From Bacteroidales bacterium (GTDB lineage: Bacteria > Bacteroidota > Bacteroidia > Bacteroidales > P3), in the NCBI GenBank assembly GCA_024400545.1, contig JAKSMO010000017.1, forward strand, positions 1 to 42,801: 42,801 bases of DNA. Direction: 5' to 3'. The translations under genes and the position numbers were made by a program. The notes under the pieces are model-generated. The model had not been told where the DNA came from, ran no database searches, and saw only the letters and a list, made by a program, of their open reading frames with translations. Shown piece after piece: positions 7,049 through 32,766 of this stretch. Each line of letters opens with the position of its first letter. The stretch's first letter is position 1.

Positions 7049-7918
7049 ATGAGTGAAAACCAGGAATGGACAACAGTCATTAAACCCAAAGATAAGCTGT
7101 TGGCTGTAGATGTCAAAGAATTATGGCGTTATCGTGATCTGTTTACGTTGTTTGTGAAACGAGATATCACAACACAGTACAAACAAACAGTGCTGGGTCC
7201 GCTGTGGTTCATCGTTCAGCCTGCGATGACGGTGATAATGTATATGGTGGTCTTTGGCGGTATTGCTGGTATTGATACCGATGGCATTCCCCAGCCGCTG
7301 TTCTATCTGGCCGGTACTTGCATGTGGCAGTATTTTTCTGACTGCTTGGGTAAGACGTCGAATACGTTTGTGTCCAATAGCGGCTTGTTTGGCAAGGTGT
7401 ATTTTCCGAGATTGATTACTCCGTTGTCGAATGTGACGTCGAATCTGATGCGTTTTGGCATTCAGTTTGGTTTATTCCTTATTGTATATATCGTTTTGGC
7501 CATTATAGGATGTACGGCACATCTGACATGGTATGTGCTGCTGTTCCCCCTGCTGGTTGTTATGATGGCAGGTTTGGCGTTGGGCTTTGGTGTTGTGATT
7601 TCGAGTATGACTACCAAGTATAGAGACTTGCAGATTCTCTTTTCGTTCCTGACGAGCCTCTGGATGTATGCCACCCCGATTGTATATCCGCTGAGCCGAG
7701 TGGAAGGCAAGATTGTAATGGGGTTTGACTTGCATACAATCATGTGCTTGAACCCTGTTACCCCGGTGATGGAAACCTTTAAACATGGCTTTTTGGGCGC
7801 TGGAGAGTTTATTGGCTGGGGTTGGTTGGCCTATAGCTTTGTGTTTATGCTGGTTCTGTTGAGTTTGGGTGTGGTGGTGTTTAATAGAACTCAGAAGAGT
7901 TTCATGGATACAGTATAA
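7049..7918 (+). CDS. wzm: ABC-2 type polysaccharide exporter permease
   Basis: A 289-residue inner-membrane protein with about six hydrophobic segments. The N-terminal region contains LFVKRDITTQYKQTVLGPLW, the hallmark of Wzm/TagG/KpsM permeases (charged helix, then LGPLW). It pairs with the ATPase gene 51 nt downstream to flip the lipid-linked glycan across the inner membrane. In this class the chain is completed in the cytoplasm before export, so no Wzx flippase is needed, and none is seen. Confidence 0.95.
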   Translation: MSENQEWTTVIKPKDKLLAVDVKELWRYRDLFTLFVKRDITTQYKQTVLGPLWFIVQPAMTVIMYMVVFGGIAGIDTDGIPQPLFYLAGTCMWQYFSDCLGKTSNTFVSNSGLFGKVYFPRLITPLSNVTSNLMRFGIQFGLFLIVYIVLAIIGCTAHLTWYVLLFPLLVVMMAGLALGFGVVISSMTTKYRDLQILFSFLTSLWMYATPIVYPLSRVEGKIVMGFDLHTIMCLNPVTPVMETFKHGFLGAGEFIGWGWLAYSFVFMLVLLSLGVVVFNRTQKSFMDTV

Positions 7919-7969
7919 TAGGAGTGAGTGAAGTATTGGATGTGTATGAATTTGTAAAATCAAACAGTT

Positions 7970-9214
7970 ATGGCTACAGCAATTGAATTTAACAATATAT
8001 CTAAACAATATAGATTGGGTTTGGTTTCGACAAGAACATTGAGTCACGACCTTAACCGCTGGTGGACAGTGAATGTGCGAGGTAAGGAAGACCCCTATTT
8101 GAAGATTGGCGAAACCAACGATCGTACCCAGAAGGGTATGAGTGAGTATGTTTGGGCCTTGAAGAATATCGACTTTAAGGTGGAGCAGGGTGATGTGGTC
8201 GGCATTATTGGCCGTAATGGCGCCGGTAAGAGCACTTTGCTCAAAATTTTGTCGAAGATTACGGGTCCGACAACGGGAACTATTAAAGCGAAAGGCCGTA
8301 TCGGCTCGCTGCTGGAGGTGGGCACAGGATTCCACCCTGAGATGACGGGCCGCGAGAATATCTTTCTGAATGGTGCCATCCTGGGTATGACTAAGGCCGA
8401 GATTGCCAGGAAATTGGATGAGATTGTGGATTTCAGCGGGTGTGAGCGATATATCGATACTCCGGTGAAGCGTTACAGCTCGGGTATGACAGTACGCTTA
8501 GGCTTTGCTGTTGCCGCTTTCTTGGAACCTGAGATTCTGGTGGTGGACGAGGTGTTGGCTGTGGGCGATGCCGAATTCCAGAAGAAAGCTATTGGCAAGA
8601 TGCAGGATGTGAGTAGCGGCGAGGGCCGTACGGTGTTGTTTGTGAGCCATAATATGTCGAGTATCCAGCAGTTGTGCAAACATGGTGTGTTGCTAAAAGA
8701 TGGCATGGTGGAGAAGATGGGCGACGTGGCCGATGTGGTGGATTATTACTTGAGTAATATGAAAACCATTAATGACTTTAATAGAAATGGCAACGGCAAC
8801 GTATTGGCCAAGGATTTCAGAATGAATACTGAAAAGGTTGAGCTGGGTGAGGATTTGGTGATTGATGTGGATTTGGTGGCACAGCGCGACACGGATATAG
8901 TGGATATTAGTTTTGATATCCTGGATGAGCAAGGTAAGCAGATAGCCCATGTTTCGAATTACGATGACCAATACCGTATCGACCACATGAGCAAAGGCGA
9001 GTGCAGAAGTGTTCGTTGTCATATAAAGAATGTCAATCTGGCTCCGGGGTGCTATACCTCAAGTATTTGGGTCGGTAATCCATACACTACGCATGATATG
9101 GTTTGGGGTTGTGTGCGATTCCGAGTGGATCAAAATGAAGTCTTTATCAAGCGCATTACTCCCTATGACGAGACATCGAGAGTGGTGCTGCAGTCGGAGT
9201 GGTCCACAATTTAA
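7970..9214 (+). CDS. wzt: ABC polysaccharide exporter ATPase with C-terminal glycan-binding domain
   Basis: A 414-residue protein. The ATPase domain has Walker A GRNGAGKS (81-88), the signature YSSGM (169-173), Walker B ILVVDE (189-194) and the switch His227. Residues from about 265 form an extra domain like the Wzt C-terminal beta-sandwich. In studied systems such as E. coli O9a that domain recognises a modified non-reducing chain end before export. Its presence predicts that this glycan carries a terminal modification. The 51-nt gap after wzm is one of the larger gaps in the operon. Confidence 0.95.
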   Translation: MATAIEFNNISKQYRLGLVSTRTLSHDLNRWWTVNVRGKEDPYLKIGETNDRTQKGMSEYVWALKNIDFKVEQGDVVGIIGRNGAGKSTLLKILSKITGPTTGTIKAKGRIGSLLEVGTGFHPEMTGRENIFLNGAILGMTKAEIARKLDEIVDFSGCERYIDTPVKRYSSGMTVRLGFAVAAFLEPEILVVDEVLAVGDAEFQKKAIGKMQDVSSGEGRTVLFVSHNMSSIQQLCKHGVLLKDGMVEKMGDVADVVDYYLSNMKTINDFNRNGNGNVLAKDFRMNTEKVELGEDLVIDVDLVAQRDTDIVDISFDILDEQGKQIAHVSNYDDQYRIDHMSKGECRSVRCHIKNVNLAPGCYTSSIWVGNPYTTHDMVWGCVRFRVDQNEVFIKRITPYDETSRVVLQSEWSTI

Positions 9215-10251: not shown

Positions 10252-11187
10252 ATGATAAATCAGGAACAGCCATTGGTTAGTATTTGTTGCTTGACTTATA
10301 ATCATGCTGCTTTCGTGGCGGAATGCCTTGAGGGCTTTTTGATGCAGCAAACAAACTTTGGCGTTGAAATACTGGTTCATGATGATGCTTCGACCGACGG
10401 CACTGAAGAGATTATCAGAAGCTATGCGGAGAAATATCCGGAGAAGATATTTCCGCTGTATGAGGAAGAGAATCAGTATTCCAAAGGACTAAACGTTTTG
10501 ATGGATTATGAATATAATTATTCGCGAGCCAGAGGCAAGTATATCGCATATTGTGAGGGGGATGATTATTGGACTGATCCATTGAAGCTTCAGAAACAGA
10601 TTGACTTTATGGAGTCGCATCCTGAGTATTCGGTCTGTTTTCATAGATGTACTCATTTGTATGCTCAAACTGGAAAAACCGAGGAGGACAAATGCGGCGA
10701 ATATTTTAAGAATGGAGAAGAGGGGCAGGACATTACGTTGGAGATGTTCTTTAAAAGCTGGATAACCCAGCCGTTAACTATGGTCTTTAGAAAATCGCTG
10801 TTCACTTTGGAGTGGTACAAAAAGTATAAGTATTATCGCGATATGCATGAGATATACCATCTGTTGAATGTGGGCAAAGGCTATCTGTTTGGATTTAACG
10901 GAGGTGTGTATAGGTACCATTCGGGCGGAATACACAGTATGTTGTCGAGAAGGGATTTTTGTAATGTTTCGCTGCCGATTGACAGAGAGTTTTATCAGGT
11001 TTCGCCATCGATTTATAGCAAAAGAGTATATTGTTCAACCTTGCAGGAGTGTTTTTTGCTCTATGCCGGTGAGAGTAGGAGAAAAGCATTGAAGTATTGG
11101 TTGGAATATGCAAGAGTGTCGGAAGATTGGAAGCGAGTGATTAAGTTTTTCTGGTTGATAATGAAGAAAGGCAATGTGCGTCAGTAA
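10252..11187 (+). CDS. Family 2 glycosyltransferase
   Basis: A 311-residue GT2 enzyme with HDDASTDGT (43-51) and EGDDYW (102-107), the nucleotide- and metal-binding sites. The EGDDYW form is common in capsule and O-antigen transferases of Bacteroidetes and Firmicutes. It starts 7 nt after the previous gene, and its end overlaps the start of the adenylation gene by 14 nt. Sugar specificity unknown. Confidence 0.93.
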   Translation: MINQEQPLVSICCLTYNHAAFVAECLEGFLMQQTNFGVEILVHDDASTDGTEEIIRSYAEKYPEKIFPLYEEENQYSKGLNVLMDYEYNYSRARGKYIAYCEGDDYWTDPLKLQKQIDFMESHPEYSVCFHRCTHLYAQTGKTEEDKCGEYFKNGEEGQDITLEMFFKSWITQPLTMVFRKSLFTLEWYKKYKYYRDMHEIYHLLNVGKGYLFGFNGGVYRYHSGGIHSMLSRRDFCNVSLPIDREFYQVSPSIYSKRVYCSTLQECFLLYAGESRRKALKYWLEYARVSEDWKRVIKFFWLIMKKGNVRQ

Positions 11188-12688
11188 TTTTGAACAACAG
11201 ATATTGTGCCCCTTGTCTGACCATTTGATAAATGGCGGAGCAAGGGAGGCATTTCTTATAGCAGGAACAACCTACAGCTATGCCCAGCTGAAGGATTGTG
11301 TGATGAAGATACGTGGTGCTGTTTCACAAAGTGGCAGCGATGAGAAGGTCTGGGCATTGGCGGTGCATGACGATTTGGAAACCTACGCTTCGATTATTGC
11401 TTTATGGATGGAGGGTAGGGCATATGTGCCTCTGCATCCCAATCAGCCTTTGGAAAGGAATTTGAATATAATAGAACAAGTAGGGACCAGGCATTTGCTG
11501 GACTCGGCTACGGATTCTGTCTATATCAATTCGGCCACAGAGATTATCACTACATCAGCACTGCAAGGTACAGAATGTGATTTGCGCGAATGGCAGTCTG
11601 TTTCGGACAACGAATTGGGCTACATCTTGTTTACTTCGGGCAGCACGGGAGTGCCCAAAGGAGTGTGCATTTCGAGAAGAAACATCTCTGCTTTTATCGA
11701 TTCGTTTTGGCAGACTGGAATAGAGCTGGGCAGCACTGATCGCTGTTTGCAGGCTTTTGATCTGACATTTGATGTCAGTGTGCAATCGTTTTTGGTGGCA
11801 TTGATTAAAGGTGCCTGTGTGTGTACGATACCATATGGTCAGGTGAAATATTTGTATGCGGCATCGTTGATGATAGATGAAGGTATTACTTTTGGAGCTA
11901 TGGCACCCTCGATGTTGACGTATTTGCGCCCCTATTTTGATGAACTGGAAATTCCGGCATTGAAAGCGTGTATTTTAACAGCAGAGGCCTGTCCCGTTGA
12001 TTTGATGGAGGATTGGTATAAATGTGCAGTAAATACGGAGATATATGATTTTTACGGGCCCACCGAAGCAACGATATATTGTACGTATTATAAATTGAAC
12101 CGAGCAGAAGAAAATCTGTCGGCCAATGGGATTATTTCGATAGGTAAGCCATTGGCCAATGTGACCGCCGTTATTCTGGACGAAAAGGGTAAGGAACTCG
12201 GTGTTGGGGATAAAGGAGAGCTGTGTGTGGCCGGCGATCAGATAACACCCGGTTATTGGAAGAACGATGAAAAAAACACCACTTCGTTTTTTGAAATGGA
12301 GTTGAACGGCGAGAAGAAAAGGTTCTATAGAACCGGTGACTTATGCTATTGGGATGGGAGTGGGAACATTATTTATTTGGGAAGAATTGACCAACAAGCC
12401 AAGATCCAAGGGTACAGAGTGGAACTGGGCGAGATAGAATATCATGCCAGGCGATACTATAACAACGAGAAAAGGGTTGTGGCATTGGCATTCCAAAATG
12501 AAAAAAATCTCACAGAGGTAGCACTCTTTATTGAATCGGAAGAGCAGAATACGCAAGAACTGGTAGAATATTTGAAGGATAAAATGCCTCATTATATGAT
12601 TCCGTCGCAATATTTATTTGAACCTTCATTTCCGTTGAATAATTCAGATAAAATTGATAGGACGGCTTTAAAACAAAGATTATTATGA
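11174..12688 (+). CDS. Stand-alone NRPS-type adenylation enzyme
   Basis: A 504-residue adenylate-forming enzyme of the amino-acid-activating (NRPS A domain / DltA) group. Core motifs are present: FTSGSTGVPKG (about 153-163), YGPTE (about 294-298), YRTGD (about 385-389), IDQQAKIQGYRVELGEIE, and a C-terminal NNSDKIDR that keeps the catalytic lysine. The A4 motif FDLTFDVSV keeps the Asp that holds the alpha-amino group, so an amino acid substrate is more likely than a fatty acid. My hand alignment of the ten specificity positions reads D-V-Q-A-I-T-F-I-Y-K, which I cannot match to a known substrate. It should load the carrier protein encoded directly downstream (4-nt overlap). DltA-like D-alanine activation is one possibility. 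Confidence 0.9.
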   Translation: MCVSNFEQQILCPLSDHLINGGAREAFLIAGTTYSYAQLKDCVMKIRGAVSQSGSDEKVWALAVHDDLETYASIIALWMEGRAYVPLHPNQPLERNLNIIEQVGTRHLLDSATDSVYINSATEIITTSALQGTECDLREWQSVSDNELGYILFTSGSTGVPKGVCISRRNISAFIDSFWQTGIELGSTDRCLQAFDLTFDVSVQSFLVALIKGACVCTIPYGQVKYLYAASLMIDEGITFGAMAPSMLTYLRPYFDELEIPALKACILTAEACPVDLMEDWYKCAVNTEIYDFYGPTEATIYCTYYKLNRAEENLSANGIISIGKPLANVTAVILDEKGKELGVGDKGELCVAGDQITPGYWKNDEKNTTSFFEMELNGEKKRFYRTGDLCYWDGSGNIIYLGRIDQQAKIQGYRVELGEIEYHARRYYNNEKRVVALAFQNEKNLTEVALFIESEEQNTQELVEYLKDKMPHYMIPSQYLFEPSFPLNNSDKIDRTALKQRLL

Positions 12689-12927
12689 CTAGAGAAGAGA
12701 TAGTGTCGAAAATTGAACCTATTGCACAGAAGGTGTTTATGCAACCGTCGTTGGTAATTGACGACAACCTTAGTGCGGCAACTGTGCCTACCTGGACATC
12801 GCTCACTTTTACTCAGTTTCTGACTGAACTTGAAGGCTTATTTGCCATTAAGTTTAAGATGATGGAAATATTGAAGATGAAAAATATGGGTGCTATTATT
12901 GATACGGTGGTTAGTCATCTTAAGTAA
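12685..12927 (+). CDS. Acyl/peptidyl carrier protein
   Basis: An 80-residue carrier protein. The predicted phosphopantetheine attachment site is Ser39 in TWTSLTFTQF; the usual DSL triplet is TSL here. The length and four-helix pattern fit ACP/PCP/DltC domains. It overlaps the adenylation gene by 4 nt and the next gene by 1 nt, so the three are very likely made together. Its partner should be the upstream ligase, with the thioester-bound group then passed on by the downstream gene product. Confidence 0.85.
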   Translation: MTREEIVSKIEPIAQKVFMQPSLVIDDNLSAATVPTWTSLTFTQFLTELEGLFAIKFKMMEILKMKNMGAIIDTVVSHLK

Positions 12928-13988
12928 TGAGTGCGGAAACGGTAGAAATAAAATTATTCACAGTAAAGGACCTAAGGGCCTGGTTGTATAAGAATCAGGT
13001 GATTGACGGACTGACTGCCAGTGTTGTGACTAAATGCAGGGCAGAGGCTATTGTCAATAATCCGTATGTAAAAGAGGATGATCCTGTAGCCGCCGCCATT
13101 TATGATGCTGGTCAGTTGGCAGCATATACCGCATCGTTTCCAGATGAGATAAATGGAGAACGAGTGTGGTGGTTTAGTTCTTTGTGGTGCCACGAGGCAT
13201 TTCAAGGACAAGGCTATCCACTAATTGCAATCGGAAGTCTTTGTGAGGCAAGAGAGGGTGAGGCTTTCTTCGACATGTGGGGGGCGGAAGAAACGGTAGG
13301 GATATTTAATTATCTAGGGTTGGAATGTTCGTACTTTGAAGAGTATGTTCTATCAAAGCGCTTTTTTTCAACTGAACTCTTGAAGAATCGCATTTCGTCA
13401 TTCTTTTGGGAAATCAAAGAGCAGAAAAAATGTAGGCTTAAGTCCATAACGGAAAAGATTGCGGCGGCGCAGTATGAGATAGAATATGTGAATTTTATTG
13501 ACGAAGAGTTATACGCGTTCATCAAAACTAATGCCAAGAAAGATTTGTGGACAAGGTCGAGAGAGATGATGAATTGGATAATGGCGTATTCGTTTATTCA
13601 TCAGGCTCCGTTATCTAACAGGGTGGATTGGTCGAGCCATTTTAGTGATAATAGAAGTAGATATTGGCGCTCGGGAGTTAAAGTTATAGAAGATGGTAAA
13701 TTGGTGGGATTCTTTATGATAAGAGAAGCTACCGACGATTTGTCGTTGAAGTATATTTATTATATTGAAGATAAAAAGGAGTTGGTGTTTGAGGCTGTGA
13801 TGGAGCATATTGTGAAGTTGGACAAATATCAATTTTCGACAAGGAATAAAGAATTAAGAGACTTTGTGGTTGGAGAAGGATTCTACGATAGGCAGACGGT
13901 CACAAAGGTTTCTTTTTCTCATCCCGATAGTTTTAGAGTACCTCAGGATGCAGAATCACAGGGGGGAGATGGTGATGGATTTGTATGA
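12927..13988 (+). CDS. GNAT-like protein, probable acyl or aminoacyl transferase acting with the carrier protein
   Basis: A 353-residue protein I do not recognise as a named family. Residues about 60-135 resemble a GNAT acyltransferase core: strands on either side of WCHEAFQGQGYPLIAIGSL (about 87-105), which is close to the GNAT acyl-CoA/pantetheine loop. A second segment (about 220-325) with an IEDGKLVGFFMIR strand may be another GNAT-like half, as in tandem-GNAT transferases. Because it sits in a 3-gene block with a ligase and a carrier protein, I infer that it takes the carrier-bound group and adds it to an amino sugar. The last 20 residues are Gly- and Asp-rich. The fold call is moderate and the reaction is inference. 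Confidence 0.55.
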   Translation: MSAETVEIKLFTVKDLRAWLYKNQVIDGLTASVVTKCRAEAIVNNPYVKEDDPVAAAIYDAGQLAAYTASFPDEINGERVWWFSSLWCHEAFQGQGYPLIAIGSLCEAREGEAFFDMWGAEETVGIFNYLGLECSYFEEYVLSKRFFSTELLKNRISSFFWEIKEQKKCRLKSITEKIAAAQYEIEYVNFIDEELYAFIKTNAKKDLWTRSREMMNWIMAYSFIHQAPLSNRVDWSSHFSDNRSRYWRSGVKVIEDGKLVGFFMIREATDDLSLKYIYYIEDKKELVFEAVMEHIVKLDKYQFSTRNKELRDFVVGEGFYDRQTVTKVSFSHPDSFRVPQDAESQGGDGDGFV

Positions 13989-14722
13989 TTAGCAATGGTA
14001 TAGGTATGGATCTGAAGAAAGGGATAAAGAAACTTGTAGGGTATGCCAAGAAACATCTGTATAGTCAGGTTGATGTCTTTTTGTTTCATGCTGTTTCTGA
14101 ACAGTTTGACGAAAAGAAAAATTTAAGAGTTGATTGGATTTCAACGCAGGAATTCAAGCAATTGGTAACGAAGATTAGTCGAGATTACGTTTTTGTTTCG
14201 TTGGAAGAGGCCCAAAAAATACTTGACCACAAGATAAGGAAAGGGAGAGCAAAGTATGCAGTGCTGACTTGTGATGACGGGTATCGCTCGGTGTTGGACA
14301 TCCTGCCTTTTTTGGAGGCTAAGGAAATACCGATCACGTTGTTTTTAAACCCGAAATATCTTGATGGAGTAAGTAAGCGAGAGGACTATGTAGAGAGTCC
14401 AGAGTACATTGGTTTTGAGGATTTGAGGAATTTGAACGCAAAATATGTGAGTATAGGCATGCACGGCTATGAGCATGTAGATGCAACAAAACAAGAGCCA
14501 GAAGCTTTTAGAGCATCCTTGAGGGAGTGCGTAAGCTACTTAAATTCACAGAAATGCTTTATTCCATATTTCGCATACACATGGGGCAAGTGCAATCAGA
14601 TGACCCAAGAAATATTGACAGAAGAGGGCATTGTCCCAGTTTTTGCAGATGGTAAGTCGAATTATGGATATTGCCAAGGTATAAGTCGTAAAGCAATTGA
14701 GTGTTATCAGAATAAAAAGTAA
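13985..14722 (+). CDS. NodB-type polysaccharide deacetylase
   Basis: A 245-residue carbohydrate esterase family 4 protein. It has TCDDG (95-99; Asp97 as base, Asp98 as metal ligand), H-x-x-x-H at 160-164 (His160 and His164) and an FAYTWG third motif near 196-201. Such enzymes remove N- or O-acetyl groups from sugars. No signal peptide is seen, so it would work in the cytoplasm on a precursor or lipid-linked intermediate. Exposing an amine here would create the acceptor that the upstream ligase/carrier/GNAT set needs, which fits its 4-nt overlap with the GNAT-like gene. A second ATG at residue 8 (14006) is possible. Confidence 0.85.
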   Translation: MISNGIGMDLKKGIKKLVGYAKKHLYSQVDVFLFHAVSEQFDEKKNLRVDWISTQEFKQLVTKISRDYVFVSLEEAQKILDHKIRKGRAKYAVLTCDDGYRSVLDILPFLEAKEIPITLFLNPKYLDGVSKREDYVESPEYIGFEDLRNLNAKYVSIGMHGYEHVDATKQEPEAFRASLRECVSYLNSQKCFIPYFAYTWGKCNQMTQEILTEEGIVPVFADGKSNYGYCQGISRKAIECYQNKK

Positions 14723-14731
14723 TACGGACCA

Positions 14732-15694
14732 ATGAAAGCACCAGTACTCGTAATCACCTTTAATCGACCTTCTTATGCACGTAGAGTGTTGGAGACGGTT
14801 AGAAGATACAAACCGGAACATCTTTTTGTTTTCCAAGATGGTGCAAGGGTAGGGAATGCTATGGACGCAGAACGATGCCCACAAGTCAGGGCGATGGTGG
14901 ACAAGATGGTGGATTGGCCATGTAAGCTTGAAACGTATTATTCGGATAAAAACTTAGGGTGTGGGCCAGGTCCGGCGAGTGCCCTTTCGTGGTTTTTTGA
15001 CAAGGAGGAATGTGGTATAGTGCTGGAGGATGATGCTGTGCCTCACGACGACTTCTTTGAGTATGCGACTATTTTGCTGGAGAAATATAAGGACGATTCG
15101 GATGTGCGGGCAATTGGAAGTATGAATGTGGATACTCATAGATGGGGAGATGGGTCGTATTATTTCTCAATGATGAACAGAAACTTGTGTGCATGGGCTA
15201 GTTGGAGAAGGGCTTGGGTGGATTTTGATATAAGACTCATGAATACATCAAGATGCAAGTTGTCGCGGGCGCTAAGCAGATATCATTGTGGACTTTCGGA
15301 GCGCGCTTATTGGTGTGATAGACTGGACGAGGTGCATAAAGACGGCGTGGGTGGAACAAGTTGGGATATGCAGTTCTTGATGTCTATTTGGCTGAATGGA
15401 GGGAAAGGCATTATTCCCAATGTGAATCTCTCGTCGAATATCGGAACCACAAGTGATGCCACGCATGAGCTGTTGCAAGGCAACATTATTGACAATGTGC
15501 CAACGAATCCGATATTGCCATTGATTCACCCGACAACGACTAGTGTACAAACTGAAGCGGATAAAGAATTTCATTATAGATATTTTCAACGTTCGAGAGC
15601 CAATTGGCCGAAGTCGAAAATATGGTTGGTAGAGGCGAACAAGTGGCTGAAAAGACTGCTGGGGAGAAACGAGCCATGGAGAAATAAAAAATGA
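14732..15694 (+). CDS. GT-A fold glycosyltransferase (HlpA/GNT-I-like)
   Basis: A 320-residue protein that opens with [18 protein letters not shown] and carries LEDDAVP at 98-104, the metal-binding EDD site of the GT-A family related to GNT-I and to HlpA-like proteins. It probably adds a sugar in repeat-unit assembly; the donor is unknown. It has no signal peptide. It begins 9 nt after the deacetylase gene and overlaps the next gene by 4 nt. Confidence 0.82.
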
Positions 15695-19883: not shown

Positions 19884-20897
19884 ATGAAGATAACAATTAC
19901 AGGCGGAGCCGGTTTTATTGGTTCTAATTTGTGCGAACATTTTGTCAAAAAAGGTTACGAGGTTACTTGTTTGGATAATCTATCAACAGGATTTCGGCGT
20001 AATGTAGAAGCATTGATGGCTGAATCGAATTTCAAGTTTATCGAGGGTGATATTCGAGATCTTGAAACTTGTCGAATAGCGGTAAAAGGCTCAGAAGTAG
20101 TGCTTCATGAAGCCGCCTTGGGTAGTGTGCCCCGTAGTATCAACGACCCGATAAATACAAATGCTAATAATATTGACGGTTTTTTGAATATGCTAGTGGC
20201 ATCACGTGATGCCGGAGTTCGCCGTTTTGTATATGCTGCCAGTTCATCGACTTATGGTGATAGCAAAGAATTGCCTAAAGTTGAGCATAATATTGGCCGT
20301 CCTTTATCTCCGTATGCCATCACAAAGTTTGTGAATGAGTTGTATGCTAATGTGTTTACGGATCTTTATGGTTTGGAAACTATTGGTTTAAGATATTTCA
20401 ATGTTTTTGGCCGTCGCCAAGACCCGAATGGTGCTTATGCGGCAGTGATACCGTTGTGGGTGAAGGCATTGATTCATCATGAGTCGCCATATATTAATGG
20501 GGATGGCTCCTATTCTCGCGACTTCACCTATATTGATAATGTCATTCAGGCCAATGAACTGGCTGCCACAGTACCATCGGAGCAACTGAGGGAGCGAGCC
20601 AACCAGTACAACGCTACCCTTACTGAGAAAGCCCCCAAGGATTTGGTGTTCAATGTGGCATATGGCGGAAACACCACTTTGATGGATTTGTTTGCATGTC
20701 TGCGTGATAATTTGGCGAAGTATGATGTAGAAATAGCGAAGATCGACCCGATTCATCGTGATAATAGGGCCGGTGACATTCCTCATTCTCAGGCATCTAT
20801 CCAAAAAGCACAATTTATTTTGGGCTACAAGCCCAAGTTTGACGCAATAAGCGGGTTTGAGCAAGCATGTGATTGGTATTGGAATAATTTGAAATAA
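19884..20897 (+). CDS. wbpP: UDP-N-acetylglucosamine C4-epimerase, WbpP/TviC-like
   Basis: A 337-residue extended SDR enzyme. The NAD-binding loop GGAGFIG is at 7-13, the SSSTYGD strand at 120-126 and the catalytic YxxxK at Tyr144/Lys148. The stretches AALGSVPRSINDP (78-90) and RYFNVFGRRQDPNGAYAAVI are close to WbpP/TviC, which interconvert UDP-GlcNAc and UDP-GalNAc (or the uronic acids). It would supply a GalNAc-type donor for the repeat unit. It starts 23 nt after the GT4 gene and ends directly against the next start codon. Confidence 0.87.
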   Translation: MKITITGGAGFIGSNLCEHFVKKGYEVTCLDNLSTGFRRNVEALMAESNFKFIEGDIRDLETCRIAVKGSEVVLHEAALGSVPRSINDPINTNANNIDGFLNMLVASRDAGVRRFVYAASSSTYGDSKELPKVEHNIGRPLSPYAITKFVNELYANVFTDLYGLETIGLRYFNVFGRRQDPNGAYAAVIPLWVKALIHHESPYINGDGSYSRDFTYIDNVIQANELAATVPSEQLRERANQYNATLTEKAPKDLVFNVAYGGNTTLMDLFACLRDNLAKYDVEIAKIDPIHRDNRAGDIPHSQASIQKAQFILGYKPKFDAISGFEQACDWYWNNLK

Positions 20898-21827
20898 ATG
20901 AAAGTTATTTTTGTCGCCAGTGGGAACAAATCTGTAGGAACAGTTAGTTCCTTTGTTCGTTCTCAATTTGATTCACTCCAGCGTGAGGGTTTAGAGATGG
21001 AACTTTTTCCTGTAGTAGGTCACGGATGGAAAGCCTATCTTCGTGCAGCCCTGCGCTTGAGAAAAATCGTCAGAACGACTCGCCCTGATGTCGTCCATGC
21101 TCATTACTCTGTATGTGGCCTGGTCGCCGCACTTGCAACTTTCGGTCTCCGTACCAAGGTGGTGGTATCTATTTTGGGAAGTTTTCCTACAGAGAATTTC
21201 AAGTTACATTGGGTCCGATTCTTCATCAAGCATATCTGGGATGCAACACTTACAAAATCACAACGAACCGCCGATCAGCTAGGCATTAAGTTGCCGGTAG
21301 TACCAAACGGAGTGAACCTTGCTCAATTTTCGCTGATAGATCAGCAGGAGGCACGTTCATTAGTGGGTTTCTCGGAGGGGAAGCAATATGTGATTTGGTG
21401 CTCCCATCCTTCGCGCCCGGAAAAGCGTTTCCGACTGGCTGAAAAGGCTGTGCAACTGTTGAATAATGATAATGTTGAATTAGTGGCCGTGTGTGATAAG
21501 CCTCACGATGAGGTGGTTAAATATATGTGTGCTGCCGATATGTTGTTATTGACCTCTGTTAGCGAGGGTTCGCCTAATGTAATCAAGGAGGCTATGGCGT
21601 GCAATTGTCCGCTGGTGTCGACTGATGTTGGCGATGTACAATGGGTTACAGAGGGTGTGGAAGGTACTTATGTAGCAATGGCAGACGACCCACAGACCAT
21701 CAGTGATTGTATTGAGCAGGCTTTGACTTTCGGAAAAAGAACTAGCGGAAGAGAACAGATTCTCACCAAAGGATTGACCACGGAATGTATTGCTTCAAAG
21801 ATTATTTCGATTTATGACTCTTTATAA
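20898..21827 (+). CDS. Family 4 glycosyltransferase
   Basis: A 309-residue GT-B enzyme. RPDVVHAHYSVCGL and the C-terminal SEGSPNVIKEAMACNCPLVS (about 221-240) are standard GT4 acceptor- and donor-side motifs. It is shorter than most GT4 proteins, mainly in the N-terminal domain. Its ATG follows the epimerase stop with no gap. Confidence 0.9.
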   Translation: MKVIFVASGNKSVGTVSSFVRSQFDSLQREGLEMELFPVVGHGWKAYLRAALRLRKIVRTTRPDVVHAHYSVCGLVAALATFGLRTKVVVSILGSFPTENFKLHWVRFFIKHIWDATLTKSQRTADQLGIKLPVVPNGVNLAQFSLIDQQEARSLVGFSEGKQYVIWCSHPSRPEKRFRLAEKAVQLLNNDNVELVAVCDKPHDEVVKYMCAADMLLLTSVSEGSPNVIKEAMACNCPLVSTDVGDVQWVTEGVEGTYVAMADDPQTISDCIEQALTFGKRTSGREQILTKGLTTECIASKIISIYDSL

Positions 21828-23214
21828 TATTATTGATAGATATATCTTTCTCCCATTAGGAGATTTGGTTTATGGCAGTTGTGTTGCTGCCAAATTCAAG
21901 GAGATGTGCAAGACAGACTTCTTGACGGAAGAGCAAGTTGTTGAACTCCAAAATAGAAAGCTGCAGAAACTTGTCAAGCATTGCTACGACACTGTTCCTT
22001 ATTATACACGTCTTTTTGATTCTCTAGGAATTGACCCGAGCCAGATTAAGACTCGTGAGGACTTGAAAGTGTTGCCGGTGCTGACCAAGCAAATTATCCG
22101 TGATAATTATGACGATCTGTTCAGCAAGGGGATGAGCTCCAGACGTTTGCGTACTGGGGCGACTGGTGGTAGTACGGGAACACCTTTGAAATTCTGTACT
22201 GATGCAGCTGAATGGAGTAGCTGGAAAGCCTCCACCCTCAGAGCTTGGAAATGGTATGGCTTGAATATTGGTGATAAAATTTTCTCATTGGGTGGCAACT
22301 CCATCAACAAGAAGAAAAATCTGTTGTCGTTCAAAGGTCTTTATGACAGAATCATCATGCGCAACTTCAAGTTCAGTAGTGCTGATGTGTCAGATGAAGG
22401 AATGCAGCGCAACTATGAAGCATACATGAAGATAAAGCCCAAGGCAATTCGCGGATATGGATCTTCATTATATGTCTTTGCGCGCTATATTGAGAAGAAC
22501 AACCTTCCAGTCCTGCCTTTAAAGGTGTTGTTGACAACTGGCGAGGTGTTGATGCCTGAATATCGTCGTAAGTTAGAGGAGGTTTTCCACGCTCCATTGT
22601 ATGATGCGTATGGCGCTGGAGATGGAGGAATCCTGTCTCATGAATGTAAAGAACATAATGGATTCCATATCACGGAAGAATCTTGTGTTATTGAGATTAC
22701 CGACAAGAAGGGTGTCCCTCTGGAGGATGGCGAAGTGGGCTTTGTCTGCACAACTGATTTGGACAATTATGTATTCCCATTCTTGAGATATCATGTGGGT
22801 GACATGGCATATATAAAAAAAGAGCAGTGTACCTGCGGACGTAAGACACGGCTGATAGGAGAGGTGATGGGTAGGGCTGGTCGTCTGATGTACAACAAGC
22901 AGGGTGTACCTATTTCACCCACAATGCTCCCGATGATGTTCTATCCTGAATTGAACTACCACAATGTTGAATATCAAAAAGTATATAACAAGATTGATAA
23001 ATTCCAAATCCGTCAGGATGCCAAAGGTGACATTTGTGTGTTACTTAAATTAAAGGATAAGAATGAAGACCGTGCCCAATTTGACTATGTGCGGACAAAC
23101 TATTGCAACCATTTTGTTGGTTCAGAAGTAGTATTATCTTTTGTTGATGAGATTCCGACACTGCCTTCTGGCAAGGAGGACTATTGTGTTTCGGAGTATG
23201 AATACAAAGGGTGA
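21814..23214 (+). CDS. CapK/PaaK-like adenylate-forming enzyme
   Basis: A 466-residue protein of the phenylacetate-CoA-ligase-like group that includes capsule protein CapK. The P-loop TGATGGSTGTPLKF lies at about 114-127, an adenylate-binding YDAYGAGDGG follows, and a CTCGR cysteine motif is near residue 340. PaaK proteins make acyl-CoA from carboxylic acids; CapK-type homologues in polysaccharide loci have no settled reaction. It is the second adenylate-forming enzyme in this operon, unrelated in subfamily to the one at 11174. I use the ATG at 21814 (14-nt overlap with the GT4 gene) over a TTG at 21790. Confidence 0.85.
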   Translation: MTLYNIIDRYIFLPLGDLVYGSCVAAKFKEMCKTDFLTEEQVVELQNRKLQKLVKHCYDTVPYYTRLFDSLGIDPSQIKTREDLKVLPVLTKQIIRDNYDDLFSKGMSSRRLRTGATGGSTGTPLKFCTDAAEWSSWKASTLRAWKWYGLNIGDKIFSLGGNSINKKKNLLSFKGLYDRIIMRNFKFSSADVSDEGMQRNYEAYMKIKPKAIRGYGSSLYVFARYIEKNNLPVLPLKVLLTTGEVLMPEYRRKLEEVFHAPLYDAYGAGDGGILSHECKEHNGFHITEESCVIEITDKKGVPLEDGEVGFVCTTDLDNYVFPFLRYHVGDMAYIKKEQCTCGRKTRLIGEVMGRAGRLMYNKQGVPISPTMLPMMFYPELNYHNVEYQKVYNKIDKFQIRQDAKGDICVLLKLKDKNEDRAQFDYVRTNYCNHFVGSEVVLSFVDEIPTLPSGKEDYCVSEYEYKG

Positions 23215-28903: not shown

Positions 28904-30016
28904 ATGGCACAGGAAATTACCGTCACTTCACCACTGCTTCCTGATTTAGAAGAATTTACTTCTCAATTAAAAAACATTTGGGATAGTAAGTGGATAACCA
29001 ACAATGGTCAGTTTCATCAACAATTGGAAGAGGCTTTGTGTGGCTATTTCAAAATACCATATATTAGCCTTTTCACCAATGGAACCTTACCTTTATTGAC
29101 TGCTCTACAAGCGCTACGTATCAGTGGTGAAGTGATAACCACTCCATATAGCTTTGTGGCCACCACGCATAGCATTTGGTGGAATGGTATCAAGCCGGTA
29201 TTTGTTGATATCGATCCTTCCAATTGTGGAATCAATCCTGATTGTATTGAGGCTGCCATTACCCCGCGTACTACGGCTATTATGCCAGTGCATTGCTATG
29301 GAAAGCCTTGCGATATAGAAGGTATTCAAGAGGTTGCTGATAAGTATGGATTGAAAGTTATTTATGATGCAGCTCATGCTTTTGGAGTAGAGGTTAATGG
29401 CAGGTCTATTTTAGAGTTTGGCGATTTGTCCACACTTAGTTTCCATGCCACAAAAGTGTTTAACACGATTGAAGGTGGCGCATTGGTAATGCACGATAGT
29501 TCTACCAAGCGGCGCGTAGATTATTTGAAAAATTTTGGTTTCGAAAGTGAGACTGAAGTGATTGCTCCCGGCATTAATAGTAAAATGGATGAGGTTAGAG
29601 CTGTTTATGGCCTGCTGAATCTTCGTCAGGTTGATAGTGCTATTGAGGCACGTCGTCAAGTTGCCATTAAATATAGAGAGGAGTTAGGTGATATTCCAGG
29701 TATTCGTTATTTTGAAGATATGCCCGGTGTAAAGCACAACTATAGCTATTTCCCTATTTTTGTTGATGCTGCGGTGTATGGAATGTCACGCGATGAACTA
29801 TATGGCAAAATGAAAGAAAAAGGCATCCTGGGGCGAAGGTATTTCTATCCTCTGATTAGTTCTTTCAGCACCTATCGTGGCTTACCAAGCGCAAGACCAG
29901 AAAACCTTCCTCAGGCCACCAAAATTGCCAACGAAGTAATCTGCTTGCCAATGCATCACCAACTCTCAGATTCAGATGTTGCGAAGGTAATAGATGTAAT
30001 TCGCAATAAAGAGTGA
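28904..30016 (+). CDS. DegT/DnrJ/EryC1-type sugar aminotransferase
   Basis: A 370-residue PLP enzyme. YDAAHAFG (154-161) holds the Asp that pairs with the PLP ring nitrogen, and HATKVFNTIEGGA (181-193) holds the PLP lysine, Lys184. The HATK-F-TIEGGA form is typical of VioA/FdtB-type transaminases acting on dTDP-4-keto- or 3-keto-6-deoxyhexoses, so an amino-deoxy sugar is a likely product. The rmlA/rmlB genes that would make the precursor are not in the window and may lie elsewhere. It is the last gene of the operon, 18 nt after wzc and followed by a strong terminator. Confidence 0.88.
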   Translation: MAQEITVTSPLLPDLEEFTSQLKNIWDSKWITNNGQFHQQLEEALCGYFKIPYISLFTNGTLPLLTALQALRISGEVITTPYSFVATTHSIWWNGIKPVFVDIDPSNCGINPDCIEAAITPRTTAIMPVHCYGKPCDIEGIQEVADKYGLKVIYDAAHAFGVEVNGRSILEFGDLSTLSFHATKVFNTIEGGALVMHDSSTKRRVDYLKNFGFESETEVIAPGINSKMDEVRAVYGLLNLRQVDSAIEARRQVAIKYREELGDIPGIRYFEDMPGVKHNYSYFPIFVDAAVYGMSRDELYGKMKEKGILGRRYFYPLISSFSTYRGLPSARPENLPQATKIANEVICLPMHHQLSDSDVAKVIDVIRNKE

Positions 30017-30295: not shown

Positions 30296-32209
30296 TTAGT
30301 ATTCCCTAACTAGGCGAACAGAGCAACCAGTAGAGTAGTTCATGGTGTTCTGCATGGTAGTTGCACCAACTTCAATATGGAAGGAATATGCGGTTGTTCC
30401 ATTCACATGGCTGGAGCTCCAGTAGTTACCAATAGTGCCAACCTGAGTGGTGGTGCTGCCGGTACGGCTACCAGCAGCGGGCAGGAATACTGCGCCAGCT
30501 TCTTCCATAGCAGTCCAATCAGAAGCACTGTAAACGTTGACAGTGTAAGTGGTGTCAGTGTTTACAAAAGTGAGGTTGTCAGGGCAAGTCCAATTGTCGG
30601 GCAGGATCACATAACCAGGAGTGTTGGCAACAGTAGCCATACCTTTCAAATTGTTAGCGTTGGGACGCTGGGTAAGGAGGTAGGTCCATTCGCTATAGGT
30701 AAGGGTGCGCCACATGCCGGTCTGGTTGCCACCATTGATGATGGGATTGTAGAAACCCCAGTCACCATTAGCATAGAAGTCAGTGAGGTCGTTACCGGCA
30801 GCATCCTCGGTATATTCGGAATCGTTGGTAGAGGTCTCGTAGGGCATAAAGCGACCGGCGCCGCCATCCCAACCGCTGGTACCATAACCAAAGAGGTCAA
30901 GCCAGCTGGAGCAGTAGTTCATCATATAGATGTGAGAGTTGTCGCTGCTAGAAATATCATACTGATGAGCTGCAAAACGGAAGGTCTTGATACGGGGACG
31001 ATACTGCAGGTTACCCTGGGAGAAGTTGATGCGGGTGTTGGCACCTACGCTGAAAATACCATTAAGAGCACCTTTAACGGTAGGATGTTCAAGCTCAAAG
31101 ATACGGTTGTTGGCAGCATCAATCTGGTTTTGCAGGTTGTTGTTTATGTTGTTGATAAGGTTGTTGAGGTCAGCCATAGCGTCGTTCATGCTGTCGCGGT
31201 GAGCCAAGAACCAAGCATACAGGGTGTCAACACGACCAGAAAGGTTGTCGATACGATCCTGGAGCGCGTTGTCAAGGCTGTCGATACGGTCGTTCAGGTT
31301 ATCCTCAACACCATCAATGCGATTGTTCACACCATTGATACCTGCAGCGAGAATAGAGTCGGCATAAGCTTTGTTAACTGCATCGAGAGGATCGGTAGGA
31401 GTAGCAAGATTCTTAATCTGACCATTAGCATTGTTGTTGATAGCAATTACGTCGGAAAGGCCCTGAGTCTCTTCGGTGATGAAACCAAGATCGTTGATGA
31501 AGTCGCTCAAACGAGTGGGGTGATTAAGAACGCTGTCCCATTCGATAGTGCCAAGGGAACTAGAGTTTCCGCCCAAATTGGGGAGAATCACATAATGGCC
31601 ACCATTGTAGAAAAGGGTGTCGCCACTAACATAGAGATTAAGGTCGGCGGCAGTGAGGAAGCCAAGGTCGTTGATGAAGTCGCTCAAACGAGTGGGCTTG
31701 TTGATGAGGGCATTGTAGTCCAAACCCCAAGCATGGAAGTCGGGATCAACTTCGGCCAGAGTGAAGTTTCCGGAAATGCTGTCGGCAACTCTTGCATGTA
31801 CAGCACTATCGGCAGTGAATGCATAGAGGGCGTAGGGCACAGAAAGAATTTTCTGGATGGTATTGAGCTGGTAGTTGCCAGATCTGTCAACATCTACCTC
31901 GCTGGAAATCCAGTAGGTATCGTTCGACCAGTCGATATTGCTGAATCTAGTAGAACCTTCGCCGATAGTGAGGGTGAAGAGACCATTATCATTGGTGCTG
32001 ATAGAAGATTCAGTTTGGGTGTAAACGTTCTGCTCATGGTTTGCACCTTTAAGGATAGAGATACGAACGTTGATGGTTTTACCACGCCACAATTGTCCGT
32101 TGCTGTTGCGAACCACGGCCTGGTAGGTGAAGCCTTTAGGTGCTTCCTGTGCAATCACTACGGTAGCAAAGGCTATTATCGCTAATAAAGTTGCGAAAAA
32201 TTTCTTCAT
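30296..32209 (-). CDS. Secreted fibre-like protein with coiled coil and C-terminal lectin-like domain
   Basis: A 637-residue protein with a signal peptide cleaved near residue 20. Residues 24-132 (GFTYQAVVRNSNGQL to SVPYALYAF) form the N-terminal domain common to Bacteroidetes tail-fibre-like surface proteins. Two copies of a 17-residue motif, KPTRLSDFINDLGF-type, lie at 170-186 and 230-246. Residues 290-375 are a heptad-rich coiled coil (RIDSLDNALQDRIDNLSGRV), probably trimeric. The C-terminal 260 residues end GNYWSSS...SVRLVREY, as in FISUMP-type and C-type-lectin-like domains. It is the last gene of an operon with a T9SS-sorted protein and an OmpA protein, and probably forms a surface stalk with a binding head. 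No sorting domain is seen on this protein itself. Confidence 0.8.
   Translation of the reverse strand: MKKFFATLLAIIAFATVVIAQEAPKGFTYQAVVRNSNGQLWRGKTINVRISILKGANHEQNVYTQTESSISTNDNGLFTLTIGEGSTRFSNIDWSNDTYWISSEVDVDRSGNYQLNTIQKILSVPYALYAFTADSAVHARVADSISGNFTLAEVDPDFHAWGLDYNALINKPTRLSDFINDLGFLTAADLNLYVSGDTLFYNGGHYVILPNLGGNSSSLGTIEWDSVLNHPTRLSDFINDLGFITEETQGLSDVIAINNNANGQIKNLATPTDPLDAVNKAYADSILAAGINGVNNRIDGVEDNLNDRIDSLDNALQDRIDNLSGRVDTLYAWFLAHRDSMNDAMADLNNLINNINNNLQNQIDAANNRIFELEHPTVKGALNGIFSVGANTRINFSQGNLQYRPRIKTFRFAAHQYDISSSDNSHIYMMNYCSSWLDLFGYGTSGWDGGAGRFMPYETSTNDSEYTEDAAGNDLTDFYANGDWGFYNPIINGGNQTGMWRTLTYSEWTYLLTQRPNANNLKGMATVANTPGYVILPDNWTCPDNLTFVNTDTTYTVNVYSASDWTAMEEAGAVFLPAAGSRTGSTTTQVGTIGNYWSSSHVNGTTAYSFHIEVGATTMQNTMNYSTGCSVRLVREY
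31491..31519 (-). repeat. 29-bp direct repeat within the fibre gene, copy 1
   Basis: Identical to 31668-31696, 177 bp apart (59 codons, in frame). It encodes the shared PTRLSDFINDL part of the two fibre motifs. DNA-level identity within otherwise diverged sequence suggests a recent duplication or gene conversion. Confidence 0.85.
31668..31696 (-). repeat. 29-bp direct repeat within the fibre gene, copy 2
   Basis: Partner of 31491-31519, identical over 29 bp. Confidence 0.85.
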
Positions 32210-32211
32210 GA

Positions 32212-32766
32212 CTATTTTGCTTTAATAATTTTGTATATGTTCTTCTTTGTATTGTCGGAATTAATAACCTGGAGCATGTAGTTGCCGGCAGGGTATTCTT
32301 CCAAATTGATTTTTTCTTCACCTTCGGTATATAAACCCTGTAGCAGCAGTTGTCCGGAAGTGCTAAAGAGTTTGTAGGTGAGGGGCTCTGTGGTTTGGTT
32401 GCTGGAAATCACCACATGATTTGTTGTGGGATTGGGGTAAACAGCCATATTCACATTCAGGGGGTCGATACCCTCGCGAGGGTCATCGGAGCGCTCCACG
32501 TCGCGGTGGGTGAAAGGTTGCTGAACACCTTCGGAAAACGAGTAGGTGACATTTACGACAGTGATAGCAGGTGCAACCGAAGTACGCACTGCGATCTGAC
32601 CGCCGCTGATGCTCAAACTGCCGTTCCCGTTGGCCACATCGCCACCAAAACTGACGATTGCTGCGGGCTCATAGTTGACGCGGTTTTGGGCCATAATGTT
32701 GCCCATCAAACCCATCAGAGCCGTCAGAATCAGCAAAGTTGCTTTTTTCATTGTTCGATTATTCAT
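32212..32766 (-). CDS. Small secreted protein with a type IX sorting domain
   Basis: A 184-residue protein. Signal peptide (MKKATLLILTALMGLMGNIMA, from residue 6), about 75 residues of beta-rich sequence (INVTYSFSEG-type strands), then a type A T9SS C-terminal sorting domain starting VYPNPTTNHVVISS near residue 107 and ending YKIIKAK. T9SS carries such proteins through the outer membrane. It starts 2 nt after the OmpA gene stop and ends 2 nt before the fibre gene start, so the three are translated together. The start could instead be the internal ATG at 32751, which opens directly with the signal peptide. It may be the surface anchor or adaptor for the fibre. Confidence 0.82.
   Translation of the reverse strand: MNNRTMKKATLLILTALMGLMGNIMAQNRVNYEPAAIVSFGGDVANGNGSLSISGGQIAVRTSVAPAITVVNVTYSFSEGVQQPFTHRDVERSDDPREGIDPLNVNMAVYPNPTTNHVVISSNQTTEPLTYKLFSTSGQLLLQGLYTEGEEKINLEEYPAGNYMLQVINSDNTKKNIYKIIKAK

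Follow-up and report, generated by a model that had tools for sequence, protein, structure and literature searches.

A four-gene cassette with a putative role in aminoacylation of an amino sugar in a surface-polysaccharide locus of a Bacteroidales bacterium

We analysed contig JAKSMO010000017.1 of a Bacteroidales bacterium (assembly GCA_024400545.1), whose 42,801 nucleotides are here called the window, with emphasis on four overlapping forward-strand genes of a surface-polysaccharide locus. The first, LIG (11174-12688), encodes a stand-alone amino-acid adenylating ligase, or A domain, of 504 aa, recognized by Pfam and NCBIfam profiles and by alignments. It is followed by ACP (12685-12927), for an 80-aa carrier protein with a presumed attachment Ser39 in the motif WTSL (weak Pfam match, PDB relative and alignment), by GNAT (12927-13988), for a predicted tandem-GNAT N-acyltransferase of 353 aa (Pfam, predicted model, Foldseek and alignments), and by DEAC (13985-14722), for a NodB/CE4-type polysaccharide deacetylase of 245 aa (Pfam and motifs). 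The overlaps measure 4 nt between LIG and ACP, 1 nt between ACP and GNAT and 4 nt between GNAT and DEAC. The original prediction, made from the sequence alone, had described the first three genes with their 4-nt and 1-nt overlaps, and the open reading frames (ORFs) agree with it.

LIG matches PF00501 (E 6.2e-54) and contains the AMP-binding fold and the core motifs. Its top-scoring ligase models are those for amino acid adenylation and for DltA. The score against TIGR01733, which models domains of larger enzymes, is 309.7 bits and falls narrowly below the cut-off of 317.4, that against the DltA model TIGR01734 is 249.1 bits, far below 559.85, and TIGR03098, the ligase of XrtA/PEP-CTERM loci, gave 159.9 bits vs a cut-off of 592.35. 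When mapped by hand onto the GrsA numbering, the binding pocket reads D V Q A L A F I Y K (positions 200, 201, 204, 242, 268, 270, 293, 301, 302 and 493). In A domains the Asp binds the alpha-amino group of the substrate and the Lys its carboxylate. Asp200 and Lys493 were retained in all 20 ligases of cassettes like that of the window, and in 30/30 of a wider combined set in which the remaining pocket is variable, so that an amino acid is favoured over a fatty acid as the substrate of LIG. The predicted adenylation enzyme with an amino-group-binding Asp was therefore confirmed by the PF00501 match and the kept Asp200. The complete pocket is identical in 14 of the 20 cassette ligases, although their tailoring genes differ, and carries one or two changes in the other six. 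A hand comparison of the pocket with the codes for Pro, Gly, Ala, Ser and Phe gave no decision on the substrate.

The carrier scores 15.6 bits against PF00550, below the cut-off of 20.8, and the window ACP went unreported in a PF00550 search of the whole genome, whose one match lies elsewhere. In a PDB sequence search its best solved relative was the carrier 2lml (E 9.1e-8), presumably a Geobacter protein. The column of Ser39 holds a serine in all 23 aligned carriers, that of the window included, in line with the 80-residue carrier with a TSL serine described originally.

GNAT exceeds the cut-off of PF00583 (Acetyltransf_1; 22.5 vs 20.7 bits), over residues 47-97 only, and has no match in NCBIfam. 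A model predicted from 25 aligned sequences (pLDDT 89.3, pTM 0.86) retrieved tandem-GNAT structures with Foldseek, such as VipF, Eis2, a clavulanic-acid tandem GNAT and N-myristoyltransferase, with query TM-scores of 0.34-0.53 among the matches listed. A PDB sequence search gave only chance-like matches (beta-glucosidases, E about 0.01). The third protein had been called GNAT-like, and a structure prediction with no GNAT fold had been named as evidence against the module; the profile match and the tandem-GNAT model point the other way. The loop motif of the first domain, by eye, is QGQGYP. The C-terminal tail QGGDGDGFV (13959-13985, forward strand) is conserved, and few parts of the family are as well conserved as the C terminus, with Asp350 in 45/45 sequences and Gly349 in 44/45. 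Of 48 GNAT ORFs from the order, 46 show the pattern G-D/E/F-G-D close to the C terminus, the other two having the variants GDSD and GDAD. The C terminus of N-myristoyltransferase participates in catalysis, and this analogy suggests that the GDGD tail may act likewise.

A profile search of 393 Bacteroidales genomes found GNAT in at least 49, distributed in 37 of 206 genera. The figure is a lower bound, as the search missed at least one stretch known to hold GNAT (L160, genome G529). From the 49 genomes, 51 stretches were taken (two genomes twice), and the 48 with a GNAT of more than 40 bits were kept, leaving out L219, L221 and L234. Because several stretches stop at contig ends, absences from them are to be read as lower bounds. 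GNAT relatives were found neither in one scan of viral contigs nor in one plasmid search. Two loci show the gene in line with carriers and other enzymes: in L089 (9370-14271) a B12-binding radical SAM gene, a carrier, ketoacyl synthase III, DEAC and GNAT are consecutive, and in L096 (7338-11288) a carrier, an FkbH-domain protein, GNAT and DEAC are consecutive, another possible acyl supply.

DEAC matches PF01522 with 44.3 bits (cut-off 23.1) and contains the motifs TCDDGY and HGYEH; the NodB-type DD and HxxxH motifs are present in all 20 aligned DEAC proteins, the window's own among them. No signal peptide or membrane segment was seen in it by eye, so the enzyme is probably cytoplasmic. Its position beside an N-acyltransferase suggests that an N-acetyl group is replaced. 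In 35/48 loci across the order, the distance between DEAC and GNAT is within 1.5 kb, and in four more (L100, L162, L163 and L226) LIG and ACP intervene between the two. A DUF1919 gene stands between GNAT and DEAC in L025, L041, L043, L055 and others.

The linkage of the four genes is a conserved cassette and not a chance arrangement. A GNAT alignment scan of named genomes yielded 21 loci, several of them on contigs shared with the search of the window's family. The titles of the 21 refer to Bacteroidetes, Bacteroidales, Paludibacteraceae or Candidatus Colicola equi, and many of them name the rumen or foregut. LIG is present in 19 of them, ACP in 20, DEAC in 19 and all four genes in 18, with GNAT proteins 23-45% identical to that of the window; the incomplete loci are two short contigs (L047, L060) and L052, which is without DEAC. 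By eye, ACP lies immediately upstream of a GNAT gene in 16 of the 21 and after the first GNAT in L042, L044, L046, L048 and L058. The original prediction had proposed looking for its gene order in other loci, and these counts show that the set recurs. Some cassettes contain additional genes. A VOC gene (methylmalonyl-epimerase-like) is the next gene after LIG in L054 and L056, and in L055 and L057 it is found within the cassette; as a speculation, this might hint that the amino acid is chiral, unlike glycine. L046 and L048 have an extra ATP-grasp gene weakly similar to L-amino-acid ligases. WbqC-family genes were seen near two ligase cassettes, in L061 (4546-5247) and in L151 (12486-13178), the latter recognized by similarity to the former only.

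Taken together, the four genes probably constitute a cytoplasmic N-acyl exchange module that puts an amino acid on an amino sugar of the surface polysaccharide. DEAC, judging from its motifs, would strip the N-acetyl group and free the sugar amine. LIG would adenylate an amino acid, perhaps a small one if the hand comparison of pocket codes is a guide, and load it on ACP, as suggested by the pairing of the two genes and by their hallmark residues. GNAT, whose fold is predicted, would take over the aminoacyl group from ACP and attach it to the freed amine in the cytoplasm, and the aminoacyl sugar would then be incorporated into the polysaccharide and exported. The core of this scheme, aminoacyl transfer, appears probable, with good support from gene context and motifs. 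The activation of an amino acid and its placement on an amino sugar, as foreseen in the original prediction, are thus favoured by context, motifs and the Asp/Lys pair; the amino acid itself we infer. Two sources had been suggested for the acceptor. The deacetylase at 13985 gains from its conserved coupling to GNAT. The other source, a DegT-type sugar aminotransferase (28904-30016, forward strand; 302.7 bits against the DesI model, cut-off 650), closes the locus on its other side, about 15 kb off and outside the conserved core, and the deacetylase route is therefore favoured.

Several observations weigh against such a module. No LIG was found in 40 of the 48 GNAT loci and no ACP in 36 (LIG being present in eight and ACP in 12 of the fetched stretches), indicating that the GNAT family is not generally dependent on a ligase-carrier supply; it may use acetyl-CoA or another donor. 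Moreover, ligase matches at E 1e-130 or better occur in 28 of the 393 genomes of the order, and among 20 ligase-centred stretches taken from these (L151-L170) an MBOAT gene, which is of O-acyltransferase type, is present in 11, accompanied by many different pocket codes. Three loci (L152, L055 and L057) even combine the exact pocket code of the window with an MBOAT gene. Because of these three, the pocket code cannot separate N- from O-transfer; at best it would mark the amino acid and not the kind of transfer. Finally, L060 and L061 encode an extra ketoreductase and ketoacyl synthase III, suggesting that in some cases something other than a plain amino acid is carried.

The first two points bear on the alternative that GNAT is an ordinary acetyl-CoA-dependent N-acetyltransferase, LIG and ACP serving another enzyme such as an MBOAT encoded elsewhere. 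Its Acetyltransf_1 match is in keeping with this, as are the many loci without LIG, the MBOAT genes of the ligase-centred stretches and two MBOAT matches found elsewhere in the window genome. Nevertheless, ACP usually comes right before GNAT in the named loci, to re-acetylate the product of the adjacent deacetylase would be pointless, and no MBOAT (DltB-type) gene was detected among the 20 window proteins scanned (9222 to 30016). We regard this alternative as unlikely. The third point would fit a hydroxy- or fatty acyl group on ACP instead of an amino acid, for which there is a parallel in the ACP-dependent N-acylation predicted in Flavobacterium psychrophilum (PMC6519341, in the sections concerned). 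Since Asp200 and Lys493 are constant in the 30 ligases, the best models for LIG are amino acid adenylation and DltA, and a related cassette of Segatella copri, described below, includes an alanine/serine-type racemase, such a group on ACP seems quite unlikely.

MBOAT genes also raise the question of a Dlt-like O-acylation system whose membrane partners were lost or are shared at a distance. L055 and L057 have a DltB-like MBOAT (TIGR04091, 201 bits, cut-off 375), a second carrier and a gene in the position of DltD, itself without a Pfam match; MBOAT genes accompany the window's pocket code in L152; LIG matches DltA at about 250 bits; and the two distant MBOAT matches of the window genome could be such partners. 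Against this, LIG lies far below the DltA cut-offs, and GNAT and the deacetylase occupy in the window cassette the place of MBOAT and DltD, which makes a Dlt-like system very unlikely. The absence of DltB/DltD partners, an argument of the original prediction, accordingly holds for the 20 window proteins, but not for the rest of the genome or for L055 and L057. In these two loci (L055 4581-12433; L057 4939-12662) one ligase precedes two branches, one with an MBOAT and one with a GNAT, that have separate carriers, and a single aminoacyl supply may be common to both transferases. At E 1e-100, none of 198 Bacteroidota genomes gave a DltA match. The pocket code DLMLFGVIFK, which we presume to resemble that of DltA, was found in eight other Bacteroidales ligases, four of them in loci with an MBOAT gene. 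In the three of these stretches that were scanned (L152, L153 and L160), small GNAT genes separate the ligase from the carrier.

A cytoplasmic transfer of this kind had been expected to be novel. In that respect the original prediction does not hold, since deacetylation of a sugar followed by its aminoacylation has already been reported for VimE and VimA: in the sections of PMC7468200 devoted to them, they are proposed to replace N-acetyl by serine or glycine in the anchoring sugar for cargo of the type IX secretion system (T9SS). What is new in the N-acyl exchange module is the ligase-carrier supply, the different transferase family and the association of its gene with vim genes. The VimA and VimE queries came from the gene cluster recA-vimA-vimE-vimF-aroG, located in genome G779, which we take to be Porphyromonas gingivalis. 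The loci gathered by that stage comprised 5032 ORFs, in which phmmer with the single VimA sequence retrieved homologues in 10 loci (E 8e-5 to 5e-14) and phmmer with VimE homologues in five (E 3e-28 to 1e-37), with no DEAC among the latter. With profiles, a VimA homologue was found in 21/48 GNAT loci and VimE in 11/48, counts that lean towards detection there because the profiles were partly built from members of GNAT loci. Under the same bias, VimA occurred in none of 17 ligase loci without GNAT (Fisher p 5.5e-4). Typical gene orders are those of L097, VimE-VimA-DEAC-GNAT, and of L160, VimE-VimA-DEAC-LIG-small GNAT-ACP-GNAT. Six VimA-bearing loci (L100, L160, L162, L163, L226 and L229) also contain a ligase and a carrier, and the pockets are of DAHK-, DAPK- or DGPK-type in all six loci that have both VimA and a ligase.

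The possibility that the window GNAT is VimA itself was rejected, as VimA is a different protein whose homologues neighbour GNAT in the vim loci. We call VimA FemAB-type following a remark on TIGR03019 in the relevant part of PMC7468200 and inspection by eye. As a proxy for VimA, TIGR03019 matched 117/295 genomes, only two above the cut-off, and was not used. VimE was also sought through PF01522 in the family of genome G528, where 27/38 genomes matched; the seven stretches inspected held other deacetylases.

The vim neighbourhood led us to consider that the module may be a second, carrier-fed route to the T9SS linking sugar, in which the GDGD-tail GNAT would aminoacylate a deacetylated O-antigen sugar and the sortase PorU would join the C termini of cargo proteins to its amine. 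This extension is tentative, and we give it rather less than an even chance. The window genome does have PorU (930 bits) and 43 Por_Secre_tail matches, 40 of them above the cut-off and one in this window. PorU was also found in 48 of the 49 GNAT genomes when the lists were compared by eye, the exception being the 80% complete G415, and in G529. There is, in addition, substantial evidence against a T9SS role. The PorU excess in GNAT genomes (one-sided p 0.008, uncorrected for relatedness) is only modest, because 344/393 genomes of the order have PorU anyway. PorU exceeds the cut-off in 25 of 26 tested genomes, and the exception (G037, 74% complete) carries the cassette; all eight cassette-free congeners tested have PorU above the cut-off. 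The cassette itself is sporadic: GNAT occurs in 16/190 genomes of the family, counting that of the window, and the 16 belong to a single genus out of 12. Neither phmmer nor profile searches found VimA or VimE in the window or in the window-type stretches L025-L061, and where the Vim pair and GNAT/DEAC coexist, the latter may act on another position. The GNAT loci without ligase and the MBOAT-linked ligases count on the same side.

A simpler alternative is that the module merely decorates a capsule or O-antigen sugar, changing its charge or antigenicity, with no part in T9SS anchoring. It shares its chemistry with the N-acyl exchange module, so that their probabilities overlap, and in our opinion its chances come close to even without reaching it. 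The polysaccharide-locus setting, the sporadic occurrence, the PorU of cassette-free congeners and the S. copri cassette, which stands beside a polymerase and a flippase and looks like plain decoration, are all consistent with it. The proximity of VimA and VimE to the GNAT family and the PorU of nearly every GNAT genome are harder to reconcile with mere decoration.

The genes around the cassette agree with a surface-polysaccharide locus. On the forward strand, a family 2 glycosyltransferase (10252-11187) overlaps LIG by 14 nt, and a homologue of it adjoins LIG in many kin loci; a putative glycosyltransferase (14732-15694, Pfam match below the cut-off), with homologues in several kin loci, adjoins DEAC; and a Wzm/Wzt-type ABC exporter (7049-9214, below the equivalog cut-offs) belongs to the same locus. 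A nucleotide-sugar epimerase (19884-20897, forward), whose top NCBIfam match is TviC, a UDP-GlcNAcA 4-epimerase (374 bits vs a cut-off of 760), is a possible source of the acceptor sugar. A second adenylate-forming enzyme (21790-23214, forward) is PaaK/FlxY/F390-synthetase-like with scores below the cut-offs, and it has close homologues in L031, L038, L045, L055, L057, L058 and L059. On the reverse strand, 32212-32766 encodes a T9SS type A sorting-domain protein (TIGR04183, 45.3 bits, above the cut-off), mentioned as context only, and its neighbour (30296-32209) has a weak match to the N-terminal domain of adhesive fibres.

Among the open-access literature matches listed, considered by titles and starts of abstracts, no set of ligase, carrier, GNAT and deacetylase acting on a surface glycan is described, but parts of it resemble known systems. 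The known tandem GNATs named above share the fold of GNAT, with about 7-13% identity among the matches listed, and use other donors and acceptors than those proposed here. DltA and DltC likewise are a stand-alone A-domain ligase and a small carrier. In Dlt D-alanylation, DltB and DltD stand where the window cassette has GNAT and the deacetylase, and LIG does not reach the DltA cut-offs. The logic of deacetylation followed by N-acylation from a carrier is that of NodB, NodA and NodF in Nod factor synthesis, where, unlike in the scheme proposed for the window, a fatty acyl group is placed on a chitin oligosaccharide. The tetronate genes of Vibrio cholerae O1 also comprise a dedicated carrier and an N-acyltransferase, for a hydroxy- or fatty acyl group on perosamine. 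The O-antigen of F. psychrophilum offers a similar case, as its surface-glycan locus has an O-polysaccharide-specific carrier and an N-acyltransferase (WfpD/WfpG). It differs in that, in the pertinent sections of PMC6519341, the group is predicted to be a hydroxyacyl from fatty-acid-type enzymes and the transferase is PglD-like; the word deacetylase does not occur in the text of that article. The XrtA/PEP-CTERM exopolysaccharide loci combine a TIGR03098 ligase and a FemAB-related TIGR03019 protein (PMC7468200, section 20). Their ligase, FemAB/GNAT-type and deacetylase families are related to those of the window, whose GNAT, as noted, has no NCBIfam match.

A closer relative is found on a plasmid of S. 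copri DSM 18205 (NZ_CP085933.1), in which ligase, carrier, an AAC(3)-type N-acyltransferase and a racemase follow each other. As in the window, a ligase (39.9% identical to LIG over 99%) precedes a carrier and an N-acyltransferase; the differences are the AAC(3)-type transferase, the racemase and the pocket DFSQLGMVFK, and the 21-kb stretch yielded neither a GNAT of the window family nor DEAC. The racemase scores above the cut-off for alanine racemase and is similar to VanT serine racemases as well, suggesting alanine or serine for this relative; as the window pocket is unlike that of S. copri, the two amino acids are only candidates for the window. In PLSDB the racemase carries the label vanT (37.5% identity), although it more likely serves the cassette. 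The phosphonate genes aepX and aepY lie alongside the polysaccharide cassette of this locus (L150, 1-13899).

A further comparison is with the Wbp/Vim pathway of P. gingivalis and Tannerella forsythia. VimE and VimA, like the window pair, are a deacetylase and a GNAT-superfamily transferase, but they have no sequence match to the window proteins, and the window encodes a ligase and a carrier as supply. In the portions of PMC7468200 that treat it, the T. forsythia sugar is 2-N-glycyl, amino-acid transfer by VimA is supported by exchange of vimA between species, and serine or glycine is transferred from a donor left unnamed. The ligase and carrier of VimA-bearing loci would, if they act there as proposed, explain the origin of that amino acid. 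Prevotella intermedia has an N-alanyl deoxyhexose although it is without VimA and VimE, and its biosynthesis is called unknown in the relevant passages of PMC11969387; a cassette such as that of the window has the parts needed for a pathway of this type. With only a ligase, a carrier, a transferase and a deacetylase, the set is compact enough to make the questions of the amino-acid donor and of the origin of alanyl sugars approachable with purified proteins, and it could become a tool to place chosen amino acids on amino sugars.

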